A stretch of 64,000 nucleotides of DNA from assembly GCF_018304765.1 (NCBI RefSeq), contig NZ_CP072642.1, positions 1,703,819 through 1,767,818 on the forward strand, read 5' to 3'. Positions 24,586 through 32,020 of the stretch are shown piece after piece (position 1 is the first letter of the stretch; every line of letters starts with the position of its first letter). The stretch comes from Chloracidobacterium sp. N. Lineage in GTDB: Bacteria; Acidobacteriota; Blastocatellia; Chloracidobacteriales; Chloracidobacteriaceae. Made by a program: the position numbers and the translations under genes. Under the pieces are notes generated by a model that saw only the letters and a list, made by a program, of their open reading frames with translations, was not told the DNA's origin and ran no database searches.

Positions 24586-26532
24586 ATGTTCCCGGCCCGC
24601 CTGACTGCCTGCTCCCTCGCCAGCTTCCTGCTCCTTGGACTCGTGACGCTATGGCCACTCCGGCCGGTCGCCCTGGCCCAACGGGCGGACCCGGAAGCCC
24701 CGCCCGCCCAGTGGACACGCATCAGTGATTTCGATACGCAGCACCTGGCGCTGGACCTGCGTTTCGACTGGCCAACCGAAACCGTCCACGGCACGGCGCG
24801 GTTGACGTTCAAGCCTGTCCGGTCGGATTTCCGCCGCCTCACGCTCGATGCCGGGCAGCCGATGACTGTTCTCGAAGTCACCACGGAAAGCGGTGCAAAG
24901 CTGGACTTCCAGCACGACAAAGCGGCCGAAAAACTCACGATTTCGCTCGACCGAGGCTATGGGCGAAGCGATACCGTGACACTGGTCATCACCTATCAGG
25001 CCCGGGCGACACCGCCCACCGGCGGACTCTTCGGCGTGTTTGGCACGGGACTGACATTTCTGCGCCCGACCTCGACGGCTTCCAAACGCCGGTATCAAAT
25101 CTGGTCCCAGGGTGAGACCGAATACAATCGCAACTGGTTTCCCTGTTTTGACTTTCCCAGTGACAAGTTCACCTCGGAAGTCCGCGCCACGGTCGAAACA
25201 CCCTACACGGTCATCAGCAACGGGCGGCTGGTTTCGGATACAGACAACGGCGACGGTACGCACACCGTCCACTGGCGGATGGAACAGCCGCATGCCAGTT
25301 ATCTGCTCTCGATTGCCATCGGGCAGTACCGCGTCATCACCAACGAGTACGACGGCATTCCGGTGCAATCCTACGTCTATCCTGACCGGTACGCCGACGC
25401 CCGGCGCGCCTTCGCCAACCTGCCGCGCATGATGGCGTTTCTTTCGACCGAAACAGGCATCCGCTACCCTTATGCCAAATATGCCCAGACGATGATTGCC
25501 GAGTTTGGCGGCGGCATGGAAAACATCACGACGACCCACCTGGCCGATAACCTGCTCCCCCGCGCCCATGAGGAACTCGATAACATCGAAGCCCTGCAGG
25601 CTCACGAACTGGCCCACCAGTGGTTCGGCAATCTGGTGACGTGCCGGGACTGGTCGGAAATCTGGCTGAGCGAAGGTTTTGCCACCTATTTCGAGGCGCT
25701 CTACATGGGGGAGCGGTTTGGGATGGCCCGGCTGCGGGCCATCCTGGCCGAACACCACGCCACGTATCACCAGGCCTGGAATGAAGGGCTGCGGCGGCCC
25801 ATGGTCACCCGGCAGTTCGCCCACCCGGACCTGCTCTTTGACGCCTACGCCTATTCACGCGGCGCGCTGGTGCTCGACATGCTGCGGTTTGTCGTCGGCG
25901 ACGAAGCCTGGCGCGAAGGCATCCGGCACTACCTGCAACGGCACCAGTTCCAGAACGTCGAAACCGGCGACTTCCGGCGGGCGATGGAAGAAGCCAGCGG
26001 TATGGGGCTTGACTGGTTCTTTGACCAGTGGGTGTACCGCATGGGACATCCGGTGTTTGAAGTCACTCATCGTTACGACGCCGACCGGCGGCAACTTACC
26101 GTGAAGGTTTGCCAGGTGCAGAAGCCGGAGCCGGCATCCCGACACGTGCAGACGGAGTATTTCCGCACCCCGGTTGAAGTGGAGATCGTCTCGGCCCAGG
26201 GACGCCGGCAGACTGTCCGGTGGTTTGTCGAAGCCCGGGCCGAGCAGGAATTTTCACTCCCGCTTGACGCTGCGCCACGGGCGGTTCGCTTTGATCCGCA
26301 GCACCGCCTGATTCGGGAAGTCGTCGGCGAAACAGCGCCGCTCCGGGAAGTAGCGGGTGTGGGATGGTGGGGCTGTCAGCACCGGCATCAGCACTGGTAT
26401 CAGCCGGGGCTGTCGGCCACGGCCGTGACACATCGGCGATGCAATCCATTGCTGAGTCGTGTAGTCTTTCCCCACAGGCATTCCCAGCACTGCGAGGACG
26501 AGGGCCATGAGCGAACCGACTTCACTCGATGA
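24586..26532 (+). CDS. Secreted M1-family metallo-aminopeptidase
   Basis: A 648-residue gluzincin. A signal peptide (about 1-33, cleavage after VALA) leads into the M1 N-terminal beta domain. The exopeptidase motif is FGGGMENITT (GAMEN variant) and the zinc site is H340-E-x-x-H344 with E363 (HELAHQWFGN, WLSEGFATYFE). It should trim N-terminal residues from peptides in the periplasm or outside the cell. The start at 24586 puts the signal peptide first; upstream in-frame codons add sequence unlike the family. The last roughly 65 residues, after RLIREVVGE, are rich in His, Trp, Cys and Arg and look like translated non-coding DNA; the frame runs 26 bases into the next gene. Confidence 0.9.
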   Translation: MFPARLTACSLASFLLLGLVTLWPLRPVALAQRADPEAPPAQWTRISDFDTQHLALDLRFDWPTETVHGTARLTFKPVRSDFRRLTLDAGQPMTVLEVTTESGAKLDFQHDKAAEKLTISLDRGYGRSDTVTLVITYQARATPPTGGLFGVFGTGLTFLRPTSTASKRRYQIWSQGETEYNRNWFPCFDFPSDKFTSEVRATVETPYTVISNGRLVSDTDNGDGTHTVHWRMEQPHASYLLSIAIGQYRVITNEYDGIPVQSYVYPDRYADARRAFANLPRMMAFLSTETGIRYPYAKYAQTMIAEFGGGMENITTTHLADNLLPRAHEELDNIEALQAHELAHQWFGNLVTCRDWSEIWLSEGFATYFEALYMGERFGMARLRAILAEHHATYHQAWNEGLRRPMVTRQFAHPDLLFDAYAYSRGALVLDMLRFVVGDEAWREGIRHYLQRHQFQNVETGDFRRAMEEASGMGLDWFFDQWVYRMGHPVFEVTHRYDADRRQLTVKVCQVQKPEPASRHVQTEYFRTPVEVEIVSAQGRRQTVRWFVEARAEQEFSLPLDAAPRAVRFDPQHRLIREVVGETAPLREVAGVGWWGCQHRHQHWYQPGLSATAVTHRRCNPLLSRVVFPHRHSQHCEDEGHERTDFTR

Positions 26533-27160
26533 GCAACTCAGTCAGCTCGAAACCGAAATCCGCCGTCTCAAAATCGAGTTTGACATCTTTTTCAATGGGG
26601 GACGGGAGCGCCCGCCTTACGACACGAAATACCGCATTGACAAGATGGTGAAGCGAATCGAGGAAAACAAATCGCTGCGGTTTCAGCAACGGTTTCGCTT
26701 CAATCAAATCCTGGCGCGTCTGGCAGCTTTCCAGCGACTCTGGGACCGCACCGTGAAGGACCGGGAAGAAGGACGTGACCTGCGTACGCAGTATCTGGTG
26801 AACTTCCGTGAAAACGAGGAGCGCCGCCGCGAAGAGTTCGGCGAAGCCATTGACGAACTCGATGTGGATGCCGTGCTCAGTGACTTCCGAAACAACCCGC
26901 TGCCGCCACGTTTTGAACCCACCACGGTACAGATGAGCCGCCACGTATCGCAGGACCAACAGGAATCCAACATTCGCCGGCTCTACGAGAGCCTCCAGCA
27001 GGCCAAGCGCACGGTGGGTGAGCCAGTCAACACGAGTTATGAGCAGTTCCGGCAGATCATCGTCCAGAACACCCAGAAACTGTGCGCCGAACGCCAGACG
27101 GACCAGGTGAACTTCACCGTGGACATCGTTGATGGCAAAGTGAAGTTCAAAGCCAAGTAA
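26507..27160 (+). CDS. Coiled-coil protein resembling the MXAN_5187 C-terminal domain family
   Basis: A 217-residue soluble protein, mostly helical and charged. The text LKIEFDIFFNGGRERPPYDT near the N-terminus resembles a conserved block I recall in Myxococcus MXAN_5187-type proteins, followed by a helical region (RIDKMVKRIEENKSLRFQQR). Its function is unknown. The start has GAGGACGAGGG just upstream. It lies 25 bases before the Ser/Thr kinase gene in the same direction, so it could be a kinase substrate or part of the same signalling unit; the sequence itself does not show this. Confidence 0.7.
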   Translation: MSEPTSLDEQLSQLETEIRRLKIEFDIFFNGGRERPPYDTKYRIDKMVKRIEENKSLRFQQRFRFNQILARLAAFQRLWDRTVKDREEGRDLRTQYLVNFRENEERRREEFGEAIDELDVDAVLSDFRNNPLPPRFEPTTVQMSRHVSQDQQESNIRRLYESLQQAKRTVGEPVNTSYEQFRQIIVQNTQKLCAERQTDQVNFTVDIVDGKVKFKAK

Positions 27161-27185
27161 TCCTTTTCTCCACAGCACGGCACCC

Positions 27186-29378
27186 ATGGCCAAACAACCT
27201 GAGCTGACACCGGATGCCATCGGGCAAACCCGCCTTGCGTCGTCAACCAGCGCGCCGGCCCTGACGGAAGGGCTGCCCGACCAGACGCAGGTCTCTGCCA
27301 GAGAGTCCGGCACCAGAGCGGAAACCGGCCCGGTGGCGGAACAAACCATCCAGCTTGGCACGGGGCCGGTGGACCAGCGGGAGGCAGGGCGGAAGACGGC
27401 CCCGGCGCAGCCGCCTTCCACCCAACCCGTCGGCATGGAGACAACCTCTCCTCCAAGACAACGTCCGGTTGAAGGGCTGGCTATCGGGCAACGCTTCCAG
27501 GGCAAGTACGAAATCCTCCGGCTGCTTGGCGTCGGCGGCATGGGGCGGGTCTATAAGGCACGTCACTGCGAACTCGATACGCTTGTCGCCATCAAAATCA
27601 TGGTCGGCAGCCTGTCGAGTGACCGTGAAGCCATCGAGCGTTTCAAGCGTGAGGCCCGGGCAATGGCGCGCGTCCAGCATCCCAATGCCGTACGGGTGCT
27701 CGATTCCGGCCTCGAGCAGGGGGATTGCTACCTCATCATGGAGTTCCTCGAAGGCGAAACGCTCCGGGAACGCATGACGCGCCTGCGCCAGCAGGGCACA
27801 TCCCCTTCGCTGGAAACCATCATCCGCTACGCCGAACAGGTTTTTGCCGTGCTGGAGTTCATGCACCGGCAAAACATCACGCACCGCGACCTCAAACCCG
27901 ACAACATCTTTCTGGCCCGCACGCCTGACGGAGAAGAAATCGTCAAGGTGCTCGACTTCGGGATTGCCAAAATCCAGACCGCAACCGTGGTCGGCATGAC
28001 GACCGAGGGTACGATGATGGGCACACCACGCTACATGTCCCCGGAACAGTGCCGTGGGGCGGCCATTGACGGACGTGCGGACATCTACTCCATGGGCGTC
28101 GTGCTCTACGAAATGCTGGCTGGTCAACCACCCTTCGACGGCGACACGGCCATTGCCGTCGCGCTCAAGCACATCAACGAGCCGCCGCCCCCGCTGCGGC
28201 AACTCAACCCCAACGTTCCCGAAGCCGTGGCCGCCGTCATCCACCGCGCCCTTGAAAAATCGCCCAGTCAACGTTTCCGCACGGCGCAGGAATTTTCGCA
28301 GGCGCTTCTAAAAGCCGCCGGCCTGACACCGGTGCAGCCGGGATTACCGGCGGCCGTCGCTCCTTCCAGTGGGATTCCCAGCGAGGACGTGCCCACGCTG
28401 AAGCGACCGGCCGACAGCGGTGACACGCGCCCCTACGGCAGCGGTCTGCCGCTGGACGAAGGTGCGGCCAAGCGGCCCAACTGGTTCCTTGCCGCCGCCG
28501 CCGGCATCATTGTCTTGGGACTGATCGTTGTCGGTGTACAACTGTCTCGGCAATCTGTGTCCCAGCCGGCTTCACCTGTTACATCCCCGTCCCCAAGTGC
28601 CCCGGCAGCGCCCAAGGTGCTGGAAAACTTCATCCTCATTCCGGCGGGAACCTTCACCATGGGGCGCGATGCCGGCCCGGACGATTTCACCTCCGACAAG
28701 CGCGTGCCGGCGGATGAAACCCCTGCCCACCAGGTCACGGTCCCGGCTTTTTATCTGGCGAAGTATGAGACGACCAATGCCGAGTACAAACGCTTTGTTG
28801 CAGCAACGGGCCACCGGGCACCGCGAAGCTGGAAGCAGGGCAACTATCCGCCCGGACAGGACGATTTCCCGGTCACGGATGTCTCCTGGCAGGATGCGGT
28901 AGCCTACTGCGAATGGCTGACGAAGACGAATGGGGAAGGCATCACCTTCCGCCTGCCTACCGAAGCCGAATGGGAGTATGCCGCGCGTGGCACGGACGGC
29001 CGTCTTTTCCCGTGGGGCAGCTTCTGGCGCGATGGCACCGCCAACACCCGGCAGGCCAAGGTAGGAGCGACTGGCCAGTCGCCCCTACTGTTGCTCCTGC
29101 CGGTCAATGTCGAGCCGAACAACACCCGCGACAAAAGCGCCTTCGGCGTCTTTGGCATGGGGGGCAACGTGTGTGAATGGACGGCATCCGATTTCGCGCC
29201 GTATCCCGGCAGCACCTACCGCCCGGCCGGGCGTGATCTTGAATGCAAGGTGTATCGCGGCGGCCACTTCGCCTCACCGCTCAGCGATGCCCTCGCCTCC
29301 AGCCGCAAATGGACCTTGCCCGACAAAACCCAGGAATTCCTTGGCTTTCGTGTCGCCGCCACCCCGGCGCAACCATGA
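27186..29378 (+). CDS. Transmembrane Ser/Thr protein kinase fused to a formylglycine-generating-enzyme-like domain
   Basis: A 730-residue receptor-like kinase. A disordered N-terminus (1-98) precedes a full Hanks-type kinase domain (about 108-378): GVGGMGRVYKA, catalytic Lys in VAIKI, HRDLKPDN (233-240), DFGIAK (257-262) and APE-equivalent SPEQ. One transmembrane helix lies at 432-453. Residues about 481-730 are a sulfatase-modifying-factor (SUMF1/FGE) fold outside the membrane, with IPAGTFTMGRDAG, RLPTEAEWEYAARGTDG and FGVFGMGGNVCEWTAS. The catalytic Cys pair expected near the C-terminus is absent (RGGHFASPL there), so this domain is likely a ligand-binding sensor. Its stop overlaps the next start (ATGA). 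Confidence 0.92.
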   Translation: MAKQPELTPDAIGQTRLASSTSAPALTEGLPDQTQVSARESGTRAETGPVAEQTIQLGTGPVDQREAGRKTAPAQPPSTQPVGMETTSPPRQRPVEGLAIGQRFQGKYEILRLLGVGGMGRVYKARHCELDTLVAIKIMVGSLSSDREAIERFKREARAMARVQHPNAVRVLDSGLEQGDCYLIMEFLEGETLRERMTRLRQQGTSPSLETIIRYAEQVFAVLEFMHRQNITHRDLKPDNIFLARTPDGEEIVKVLDFGIAKIQTATVVGMTTEGTMMGTPRYMSPEQCRGAAIDGRADIYSMGVVLYEMLAGQPPFDGDTAIAVALKHINEPPPPLRQLNPNVPEAVAAVIHRALEKSPSQRFRTAQEFSQALLKAAGLTPVQPGLPAAVAPSSGIPSEDVPTLKRPADSGDTRPYGSGLPLDEGAAKRPNWFLAAAAGIIVLGLIVVGVQLSRQSVSQPASPVTSPSPSAPAAPKVLENFILIPAGTFTMGRDAGPDDFTSDKRVPADETPAHQVTVPAFYLAKYETTNAEYKRFVAATGHRAPRSWKQGNYPPGQDDFPVTDVSWQDAVAYCEWLTKTNGEGITFRLPTEAEWEYAARGTDGRLFPWGSFWRDGTANTRQAKVGATGQSPLLLLLPVNVEPNNTRDKSAFGVFGMGGNVCEWTASDFAPYPGSTYRPAGRDLECKVYRGGHFASPLSDALASSRKWTLPDKTQEFLGFRVAATPAQP

Positions 29379-30760
29379 GGTTGAAAACCGTCAACCACCC
29401 TCTGCATTCCCTGCTCGTGTTGCTCACCGTTCTGGCGGTCAGCGGCTCGTCCGCAATGGCCCAGAAAGAAGCCGGTGTCATCGTCGAGAAAAAAGTCAGG
29501 ACGGCGAACTATCGCCCGCCTTCCGTAGGGTCGCTCATGGTCGCCAGCAACACCCCAACGGGCGAAGTACTGCTCAACGGCCAGCCCAGCGGACAGTTGA
29601 CCGATGCCAGGTTCATGAAGCGGCTCAATCCGGGACGTTATCGGCTTGAAGTCCGTGCCGCCGACTACCTGCCCTTCTCCCGCGAAGTCACCATCACGGC
29701 CGGACGCGCGGAAGCCGTCATTGCCGAACTCAAACCCAACTTCGCCACCCTTTCCCTGCCAAACCTGCGCCTGCGCCCAACGCCCAAGCCGGCCGTTTTC
29801 GTGGACGGCCAACCCCTGGACGAAGGACGGTGGCGGTTGGACGGCCAGCGGCTGGAAGCACGCATCAGCCCACCGGGCACACGCACCATCCTGGTCAGGC
29901 AGGGAACGCGCGTCGTCTATCGGGGAACCCTCAAACTGGAAGCGGCTGCAGCCAAGGTTGAAGTCGCCGAACCGCCGAAAGCCATCCTCCGCATCGAGTC
30001 GCTACCTACGGCCCGCGTCTATGCCGACGACGTGTACTGCGGAGATGTTTCAGCCGACGGCACGCTGGTGATTGACCAGCTTTCACCCGATGAAACCCAC
30101 CGGCTGCGCATCGAGGCCGAACGCTACCGGACGTTTGAAACCGACCTCATCGTGACGACTGAGCAACCGACCCTGCTGCGCGCCCGCCTGGAAGCCATCA
30201 TCGAGTTTGCGGACAACTTCACCAACCTTTACAAATGGGACGCCCCGCCCGGATGGGCCGTGGAAAACCAGCTTCTGCGTGTCAGCGGCCCGGCGTTTGC
30301 CGTCGGACTGCCCAGAGACGTTGGCTTTCGGGGCTGTGAAATCAACTTCGACCTGCGGATGACCCAGGGCTGGCGGGCCGCATGGATCGTACGTGGGCGC
30401 GATGAACGCAACGGCTACCTGTTCATTCTGGAAGCTCCAACGCCCACGACGAGTCGGATTGACACCTATCTCTACCGGGACGGCGCCATCGGGACGCCGG
30501 TGCAAAGCGACCCGCTGCCGCTGCGCTTCGAGGCGCGCAAGTGGAACCGCATCCGCATCGTTGCCCGCGACAACAAAATCAGCCACCTCATCACCCCCAG
30601 CGACAGCCCCGACGAAATCTCGGTGGCGCTGTTCCAGGACCGCGACAAGCTCTTTCCCTACGGTGCGCCGGGCTTTGTTTCCCTGCCGGACGCGACGTTC
30701 TATGTCGGTGGGTTTGTCGTCTGCCCGGAAGGGGCCGACTGCCGTCCCGAAATCAGGTAG
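29375..30760 (+). CDS. Secreted PEGA-repeat protein with C-terminal laminin-G-like domain
   Basis: A 461-residue protein with a signal peptide (1-30, ending SSAMAQ), PEGA-type beta repeats (about 45-113, a middle copy, and about 205-275; e.g. GEVLLNGQPSGQL, RLNPGRYRLEVRAADY), and a C-terminal concanavalin-like domain (about 280-460) with FADNFTNLYKWDAPPGW and NGYLFILEAPTP, resembling domains that bind or cleave glycans. PEGA domains are common in surface proteins and bind cell-wall or matrix components. The ATG at 29375 overlaps the kinase stop by four bases, which indicates translational coupling; it may be the extracellular partner of the kinase's FGE-like domain. Confidence 0.82.
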   Translation: MRLKTVNHPLHSLLVLLTVLAVSGSSAMAQKEAGVIVEKKVRTANYRPPSVGSLMVASNTPTGEVLLNGQPSGQLTDARFMKRLNPGRYRLEVRAADYLPFSREVTITAGRAEAVIAELKPNFATLSLPNLRLRPTPKPAVFVDGQPLDEGRWRLDGQRLEARISPPGTRTILVRQGTRVVYRGTLKLEAAAAKVEVAEPPKAILRIESLPTARVYADDVYCGDVSADGTLVIDQLSPDETHRLRIEAERYRTFETDLIVTTEQPTLLRARLEAIIEFADNFTNLYKWDAPPGWAVENQLLRVSGPAFAVGLPRDVGFRGCEINFDLRMTQGWRAAWIVRGRDERNGYLFILEAPTPTTSRIDTYLYRDGAIGTPVQSDPLPLRFEARKWNRIRIVARDNKISHLITPSDSPDEISVALFQDRDKLFPYGAPGFVSLPDATFYVGGFVVCPEGADCRPEIR

Positions 30761-30922
30761 CTGGTGCGGGCATCCACCAGCCCATCAACCCCACGGTCAC
30801 ATCCAGGAAGGCGGCAGAAACCACAGATGCGGTTTCCCAACGTGACAGTGCAGTGCCCGTGCGATGAGATTGCCCCAGGGCATCGAAAGCCAGAATGTCA
30901 GGCGTGGCAACGGCAACATGCT

Positions 30923-32020
30923 TCATTGACCTCCATTCTTCCCGGAGTGGGCCGTGGCGATGTGGGCCAGGCGGGTATCCAGACTCGGTAGCGGGTGAAA
31001 CACCTGCTGCTTGCGACCGGTGATGTCCGGCTGGGCGCGATTGATTTCTGCCAGTGCAATCAGGGTGTCGCGCAACACCCGTGGATCACCGCCCTGGGCA
31101 AGGTAAAAGCGGTCTGCCGCCAGAACGCTGCGCCGTCCCAGGGCTGGCAGGACAAACAGGCCGGCAAAGTTCCACCACGTCATGCCAACGGCCAGTGTCA
31201 GCAGGTCCGCCAGTCCGCCATTCAGCCCGAAGTTGGTCAGTGCAGCCACAACGGCCAGCCCGGCAGAAAGCCACAGGCTGGATACCAGAACGCCCAGCGT
31301 ACGGTGGCCCGTCTGGAGATGCCCCACCTCGCGCACGAGCAGGCAGGCCACCTGCTCCGGGCGCAGCTTGTCAAGCGTCGTCTGGCTTATCCACAACTGC
31401 GTCGTTGGCCCCCAGCCGACCAGGCCGCCATTGACGGCTTCATCCGCATCACCGGTGAAGACCACCAGTTTGGGTAGCTTTGAGCGTAGCGCAGGCGGCA
31501 CCGCGTCAACGACCGGCGGCGCGTCAAAGGGCTTCCGGCGCACCACCGGCGGCAGCAGGAAAGGCTGGAGCAGGGCCAGCACCAGAGAGACGCCGGCCAC
31601 CAACCCGGCCGCCGCCAGCCACCACCAGCCGGGCAGCCACTGATGCAACTGCCACAGGGCGGTCAGGCCGAGCACGAACATAACGCCCTGTCCGGTCACG
31701 CCGGTCAGATAAGCCATCAGCCAGTGACGCAACGTGCGCTGCGTCATGGCGAAACTGCGTTCTGCTGCCCAGCCGGTCAAAAGCTCCAGCGGTGCGTTGA
31801 CGGCGGCGTACAGGACATAAAAGGCCGCCAACCCCAGCACAATCCTCCCGACCGAAGGCTGGGCCTCGATACCCAACGCACGGGACAGGGCAACGTGTCC
31901 CCCGGCCAGGATGAACACCGTGAAAAACATCAGATTCCAGCCAATTGCGCCAATTCCGCTCCAGAGACGAAAGTCCTGGTAGGCGCGGCCTGCCGTCAGC
32001 AAAGCGGTTTGATTCGTCAT
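30923..32020 (-). CDS. M48/Ste24-like membrane protein lacking the zinc-protease motif
   Basis: A 365-residue protein with about seven hydrophobic helices laid out like CAAX-protease Ste24/HtpX. The text KLVVFTGDADEAVNGGLVGW and TTLDKLRPEQVACLLV are family features. Where active members have HEXXH, this one reads REVGHLQTGH: the first zinc His is Arg (codon CGC). In the later EXXAD-like motif the expected Glu is also gone (RRSVLAADRFYLAQGG). It is probably catalytically inactive, a pseudoprotease, and the frame is otherwise intact. Start at 32020 gives a short N-terminus before helix 1; no good ribosome-binding site is present. Divergent from fadR. Confidence 0.75.
   Translation of the reverse strand: MTNQTALLTAGRAYQDFRLWSGIGAIGWNLMFFTVFILAGGHVALSRALGIEAQPSVGRIVLGLAAFYVLYAAVNAPLELLTGWAAERSFAMTQRTLRHWLMAYLTGVTGQGVMFVLGLTALWQLHQWLPGWWWLAAAGLVAGVSLVLALLQPFLLPPVVRRKPFDAPPVVDAVPPALRSKLPKLVVFTGDADEAVNGGLVGWGPTTQLWISQTTLDKLRPEQVACLLVREVGHLQTGHRTLGVLVSSLWLSAGLAVVAALTNFGLNGGLADLLTLAVGMTWWNFAGLFVLPALGRRSVLAADRFYLAQGGDPRVLRDTLIALAEINRAQPDITGRKQQVFHPLPSLDTRLAHIATAHSGKNGGQ

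Follow-up and report, generated by a model that had tools for sequence, protein, structure and literature searches.

Conserved pairing of FGE-domain kinases with secreted PEGA and lectin-fold proteins in Acidobacteriota

What might a membrane kinase sense when its gene runs directly into that of a secreted, lectin-shaped protein? This question was raised by a locus of Chloracidobacterium sp. N (Acidobacteriota), whose genome (G000) comprises two contigs and 3.7 Mb, within a 64,000-nucleotide stretch of contig NZ_CP072642.1 (positions 1,703,819 to 1,767,818; hereafter the window). Open reading frame (ORF) calling in the window revealed three co-directional ORFs on the + strand, i.e., P0001, P0002 and P0003, of which P0002 encodes a Ser/Thr kinase with an ectodomain resembling formylglycine-generating enzyme (FGE), and P0003 a probably secreted protein composed of PEGA units and a C-terminal lectin-fold domain (hereafter LG). 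An earlier first-pass annotation of this DNA had described the three genes as running together with a four-base overlap between P0002 and P0003, and both features were seen, the overlap being the ATGA (29375–29378) that joins the P0002 stop to the P0003 start. Linkage of the P0002/P0003 type is far beyond chance in relatives, and this persistent pairing suggests that the kinase and the secreted lectin-shaped protein jointly sense something outside the cell.

Pairing of kinase-FGE and PEGA-LG genes in relatives

The loci fetched from relatives contained 50 strong LG ORFs. The pairing count covered these loci apart from the window itself and the repeat fetched contigs L119–L134 (L123 and L125 being retained), and for 38 of the 43 proteins that combine PEGA with LG and carry no kinase domain themselves, an FGE gene was located directly upstream on the same strand. 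The kinase domain was visible in 34 of these pairs, the other four being truncated or split at contig ends, and 33 pairs came from outside the genus of the window (five from within it). Gaps within the pairs ranged from –250 to +189 when the longest ORFs were taken. The five unpaired proteins consisted of one at a contig edge (L115), two caspase fusions (L093 and L113) and two that were unlinked (L117 and L118). In L118 (5548–13024), a kinase-FGE gene, an outer-membrane barrel gene and a PEGA-LG gene follow one another on one strand, and in L122 (11321–14135) a PP2C phosphatase gene is situated directly downstream of the pair, followed by an FHA-GAF-adenylate cyclase gene on the opposite strand.

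The pair has also been duplicated; a single genome has up to four paralogous pairs (L079, L084, L085 and L090 in G009). In a tree of 66 FGE domains (without three genus relatives and duplicates, and with unpaired rows that were hand-picked from the match list), the label of being paired with LG changed only 6 times, as compared to a mean of 22.2 after shuffling, and none of 500 shuffles was as low. Moreover, in four whole genomes searched with curated Pfam models only, 12 of 24 PEGA ORFs were located less than 1.2 kb from an FGE domain, where ca. 0.2 were expected; ten of these were downstream on the same strand and two were in the same frame. Nine partial PEGA matches and six weak FGE fragments were set aside in this control. 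Secreted PEGA proteins devoid of LG directly follow FGE kinases in L155, L156, L157 and L158. Because of these LG-less proteins and the proximity found in the four genomes, the rule can be put more broadly: behind an FGE kinase gene comes that of a secreted PEGA protein. L152 and L153 encode PEGA-FGE proteins in which PEGA was recognized by a custom hidden Markov model (HMM) only, Pfam yielding FGE alone for L152.

Since the kinase-FGE and PEGA pair is conserved and repeatedly duplicated, a functional link between both gene products is likely.

A candidate two-part sensor and its rivals

P0002 (27186–29378, 730 aa) was recognized via Pfam and hydropathy as a membrane Ser/Thr kinase with an FGE-like ectodomain. 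Its cytoplasmic kinase domain (residues 108–368, 27507–28289; PF00069, E-value of 5.3e-51, model positions 1–256 of 263) contains the VAIK, HRDLKPDN and DFG motifs and, judged by its sequence, is a full Hanks-type Ser/Thr kinase domain. Beyond the single transmembrane segment predicted by hydropathy (residues 433–451, 28482–28538), an FGE-sulfatase-like ectodomain of the C-type-lectin fold (residues 481–724, 28626–29357) matches nearly the whole PF03781 model (2.4e-51). P0002 resembles the receptor kinases PknB and StkP in its kinase domain and single transmembrane segment, but differs from them in its FGE-like ectodomain, in having no PASTA repeat match in the Pfam scan, and in its secreted partner gene. 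Its match to the Stk1/PknB model NF033483 (1.3e-97, 328 bits) remains under the family cut-off of 450 bits. Elsewhere in the same genome, a second FGE-like ORF comes after another kinase-FGE gene (L001, G000:C1:2387688–2389088).

The ectodomain belongs with the FGE-sulfatase/sulfatase-modifying factor family, its closest solved sequences being ToxD (7SPQ) and SUMF1. In contrast to the enzymes, however, it is the ectodomain of a membrane kinase and has no C-x4-C: alignment with human SUMF1 placed S697 and A702 at both positions, which we take to be those of Cys336 and Cys341 of the enzyme, where C-x4-C comes after a GG motif. P0002 thus has the fold domain of a formylglycine-generating enzyme without the catalytic Cys pair. 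All 36 LG-paired FGE domains lack this pair, which was also absent from the other FGE-like rows aligned. The first-pass annotation had noted the missing cysteine and deduced a likely receptor from it; the former holds, whereas the latter is a weak deduction, because no aligned FGE-like row has the Cys pair and its absence is therefore not by itself informative as to a sensor role.

P0003 (29375–30760, 461 aa; Pfam and AlphaFold2 model) has one N-terminal hydrophobic stretch (residues 10–28 by hydropathy), located in a probable Sec signal peptide (residues 1–29, 29375–29461) whose cleavage site (...SAMA/Q) was placed by eye. A first PEGA unit (residues 56–120 by the family HMM, 29540–29734, or 52–121 by Pfam at 1e-9) is followed by PEGA-like units 2 (residues 135–199, 29777–29971) and 3 (residues 207–273, 29993–30193), both identified with the family HMM in L005 and numbered from its 505-aa frame minus 44. 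Modeling P0003 with AlphaFold2 (17 sequences, mean predicted local distance difference test score of 85) gave a confident all-beta chain, in which the C-terminal LG (residues 273–457, 30191–30745) is predicted to be a concanavalin-A-like lectin fold. Structure comparison via Foldseek and VIA-align revealed CBM66 of Bacillus subtilis as the best PDB match (Z 19.6, root-mean-square deviation 2.3, 156 aligned residues), followed by a putative glycosyl hydrolase domain, galactocerebrosidase, ERGIC-53 and legume lectins. LG shares the concanavalin-type fold of CBM66, but at an identity of 15% and not on an enzyme.

No Pfam name passed its cut-off for the LG of the window, with PF06439 (3-keto-disaccharide hydrolase) remaining below it (E-value of 0.14, 12.6 of 26.8 bits). 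At an E-value of 0.01 or less, PF06439 matched 6 of 41 LG family members (best 6e-5) and Laminin_G_3 matched 1 of 41. The secreted PEGA/laminin-G-like protein that had been proposed earlier is thus borne out for PEGA and has a probable signal peptide, whereas its C-terminal domain is nearest to CBM66 and its PEGA part consists of three PEGA-like units. Across the phylum, the LG profile matched 36 of 297 genomes at an E-value of 0.001 or less, including 25 matches below 1e-30 in 14 genomes, two of which are outside the class. The two sequence patterns used detected no LG relatives in 2.9 million viral contigs, and plasmids gave no LG match; the contig scan by patterns yielded 16 loci, a number limited by the patterns themselves, and covered other phyla in part.

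The reading that we favor, with a probability of roughly 0.45, is that P0002 and P0003 form an extracytoplasmic, lectin-like sensor in two parts, PEGA-LG passing its signal to the kinase via the FGE ectodomain. Sec would export PEGA-LG, whose three PEGA sandwiches would hold or space LG in the periplasm or at the cell surface, and LG would bind a glycan or glycoconjugate whose handling by outer-membrane barrels is plausible. PEGA-LG might then signal to the FGE-like ectodomain, either directly or via a shared ligand, upon which dimerization of the kinase and cytoplasmic Ser/Thr phosphorylation would change. This model is based on the gene pairing, the domain make-up, the predicted fold, the co-inheritance through duplications, the existence of cis fusions and the barrel genes close to LG.

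A number of points weigh against this sensor model. Both the contact between PEGA-LG and the FGE domain and the ligand of LG are what we infer, and the resemblance of LG to CBM66 comes with only ca. 15% identity. An LG partner is missing from many FGE kinases (L001 and L002 in G000 itself, for instance), and the genus relative G003 has no P0003 match. Furthermore, no barrel was found in the five genus loci (L059–L063), and the link with barrels is unseen in the genus of the window. Finally, distances among 29 pairs (four genus relatives being left out) yielded partial correlations of 0.47 with the kinase domain and 0.29 with the FGE domain for LG, and of 0.67 and 0.42, respectively, for the PEGA part. 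Nearly all permutations gave lower values than these four. Because PEGA and LG distances are closer to those of the kinase domain than to those of the FGE domain, FGE-specific co-evolution was looked for and not found in these pairs, and the correlations therefore indicate co-inheritance, with no specific interface shown. The earlier proposal that the PEGA protein is a ligand or co-receptor of the FGE domain retains the support of a conserved and duplicated pair, whereas the distances speak against a specific contact between the two.

The same distances fit a rival reading in which PEGA-LG is an output or client of the kinase, i.e., a structural lectin of the envelope or associated with polysaccharide, whose gene would stay in the kinase operon because its amount or assembly is under kinase control. 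The secreted PEGA proteins without LG behind the FGE kinases of L155–L158 point in the same direction, as do the co-directional genes and their short or overlapping spacing. Nevertheless, LG is also fused to kinases and to TIR proteins, where it follows a transmembrane segment and so takes a sensor's place, and this rival appears unlikely to us. The lack of FGE-specific co-evolution, together with a binding that rests on inference, would also be compatible with mere co-inheritance of an old operon whose products make no functional contact. This is highly improbable, given that pairing persists through the paralogues of single genomes and across families, and that cis fusions exist.

LG in other architectures and next to outer-membrane barrels

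LG is not restricted to the secreted partner of FGE kinases. Kinase, transmembrane segment and LG occur in one chain in L138 and L104 (the transmembrane segment of the latter is below the hydropathy threshold and was identified by eye), and a single 1622-aa chain in L140 (6633–11498) combines kinase, TPR, transmembrane segment, PEGA and LG; the LG matches in L138, L140 and L139 are weaker (1e-13 to 1e-19, custom HMM). TIR, transmembrane segment and LG are joined in one protein in L116 (5487–6764), L123 (9182–10579), L125 (9017–10579) and L135 (5112–6521), and this arrangement is predicted to be a TIR receptor with a lectin-like ectodomain. In L093 (5858–8590) and L113 (6341–9655), a caspase domain (Peptidase_C14) is combined with PEGA and LG in a protein with an N-terminal hydrophobic stretch, and a barrel gene adjoins each. 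With LG outside and the signaling or effector part inside (or both outside in the caspase forms), LG thus behaves like a sensor module.

The vicinity of LG is also rich in outer-membrane barrels. PF25183-type barrel ORFs were present in 21 of 53 LG loci (23 ORFs in 655 kb) as compared to 0 of 14 control loci (210 kb), in which no barrel appeared even at an E-value of 1 or less. Since the barrel HMM had eight barrels from LG loci as its seeds, which favors the LG side, and several loci are close relatives, this enrichment is real in direction and rough in size. The count considered only ORFs of more than 500 aa, so that barrels cut at region ends (e.g., in L110 and L081) were missed. In 17 of the 53 loci (tallied by hand) a barrel gene was situated within 500 bp of LG, where an independent but loose first-look whole-genome count predicted ca. 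1.2; with several of these loci closely related, the P value of this difference is too low. Barrels were confirmed by Pfam in L119, L120, L126, L131, L111 and L118, and flank LG on both sides in L136. The link was strongest where LG lacks FGE-kinase pairing. The long neighbors in L124 and L130, initially considered as barrels by their length, were rejected as large NHL-repeat proteins.

The barrel neighbors suggest another reading, in which LG proteins of all architectures monitor glycans imported via OMP_b-brl_4/CarboxypepD_reg barrels and regulate them, presumably much like the SusC-linked sensors of Bacteroidetes. The close barrels in 17 loci, the six Pfam-confirmed loci, the kinase-FGE/barrel/PEGA-LG row of L118 and the doubly flanked LG of L136 argue for such nutrient sensing. 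In 32 of the 53 LG loci, however, the fetched region holds no barrel of more than 500 aa, all five genus loci included, and the NHL-repeat proteins of L124 and L130 also count against it, so that we regard this reading as possible with the odds somewhat against it.

The TIR-TM-LG proteins of four loci and the caspase-PEGA-LG proteins of two could also be taken to mean that LG is an extracytoplasmic lectin-like sensor of invaders, wired to kinase, TIR or caspase effectors, the more so since FGS and NPCBM lectin-fold sensors couple to the same effectors (PMC8195603). Such a role in conflict or defense is quite improbable. The N-terminal hydrophobic stretches of the caspase-LG proteins suggest export, PADLOC matched P0002 with generic kinase models only and P0003 not at all, and the own genome contains no reverse transcriptase (PF00078, 0/1), hence no diversity-generating retroelement. 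For this genome, a retroelement behind the FGE domain was rejected on the same ground.

Among these architectures, it is conceivable, though rather doubtful, that LG is an unrecognized extracytoplasmic concanavalin-fold sensor of Acidobacteriota, with kinase, TIR and caspase outputs and barrels as usual companions, and as such a bacterial counterpart of the concanavalin-fold immune sensors of the SPRY type. Its output would run in trans via PEGA spacers and an FGE kinase, or in cis on kinases; with TIR across the membrane, it would adopt a lectin-headed, Toll-like topology, and it would also be carried by secreted caspase-like proteases. SPRY-like domains, which according to PMC8195603 had not yet been seen in prokaryotic conflict systems, have the concanavalin fold class in common with LG, and the likeness is one of fold class.

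PMC8195603, PMC7159879 and PMC10907252 describe FGE and FGS domains as sensors of the lectin fold to which TIR, caspase and kinase are coupled, the sensor function of the FGE-type lectin fold being a proposed role (PMC8195603), and the FGS and NPCBM sensors are presented there as intracellular and often linked to NTPases or retroelements (Kaur et al., PMC8195603). The proteins studied here likewise couple lectin folds to kinase, TIR and caspase effectors, but their lectin-like parts are extracytoplasmic, and one of these is a concanavalin fold that usually resides in a secreted protein of its own. For FGE kinases, a PEGA-lectin partner was not found in the open-access literature searched (subscription papers and preprints being outside that scope), nor is it described in the accessible parts of PMC7159879, PMC8195603, PMC10907252, PMC8436480 and PMC3174227; LG as a common module and its barrel neighbors were likewise not found in the open-access literature. 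While FGE/FGS lectin-fold sensors are known, the secreted PEGA-LG partner, LG as a common module and the barrel neighbors appear to be new.

Few bacterial receptor kinases have a known signal, and for a large, duplicated group of them in Acidobacteriota a conserved secreted partner points to a concrete candidate for the input. If LG indeed serves kinase, TIR and caspase outputs alike, it would connect the recognition of glycans with outer-membrane transport and with the activation of effectors, and would be a domain for finding such systems.

P0001 as a local neighbor

P0001 (26507–27160, 217 aa) ends 25 bases before the P0002 start and carries an MXAN_5187_C domain in residues 152–217 (NF041621, E-value of 1.1e-15). 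Matches to P0001 were obtained in 37 of 58 genomes, and the loci of 20 of these 37 were fetched. An FGE kinase was located beside the P0001 homologue in 6 of the 20, i.e., in G008 and in five genus relatives. Of the six genus relatives, five (L059–L063) kept the order P0001, kinase-FGE, P0003, the sixth (G003) having no full P0001 match, and in G008 the P0001 and kinase genes lie together at a contig end and a P0003 homologue begins another contig. No FGE ORF was found at the other 14 of the 20 loci, two of which (L068 and L069) have a kinase without FGE near the P0001 homologue. Because the three-gene unit is confined to the genus and G008, P0001 is a local neighbor and not a general member of the unit. 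Of the three-gene order, whose conservation in relatives the first-pass annotation had named as a check, the P0002/P0003 part is therefore widely kept but not the P0001 part, and the idea of P0001 as a kinase substrate or unit member is weakened by the 14 loci without FGE ORF. This small protein may have a role of its own.

In the region 26000–31200 around the three genes, no sigma-70-like promoters were predicted as compared to 0.8 by shuffling, i.e., without excess, and the 8 terminator-like sites (5.1 after shuffling) are an unremarkable count. SelA adjoins the P0001 homologue in L072 and L076 (Pfam), and the N-terminal part of P0001 is conserved throughout the class.

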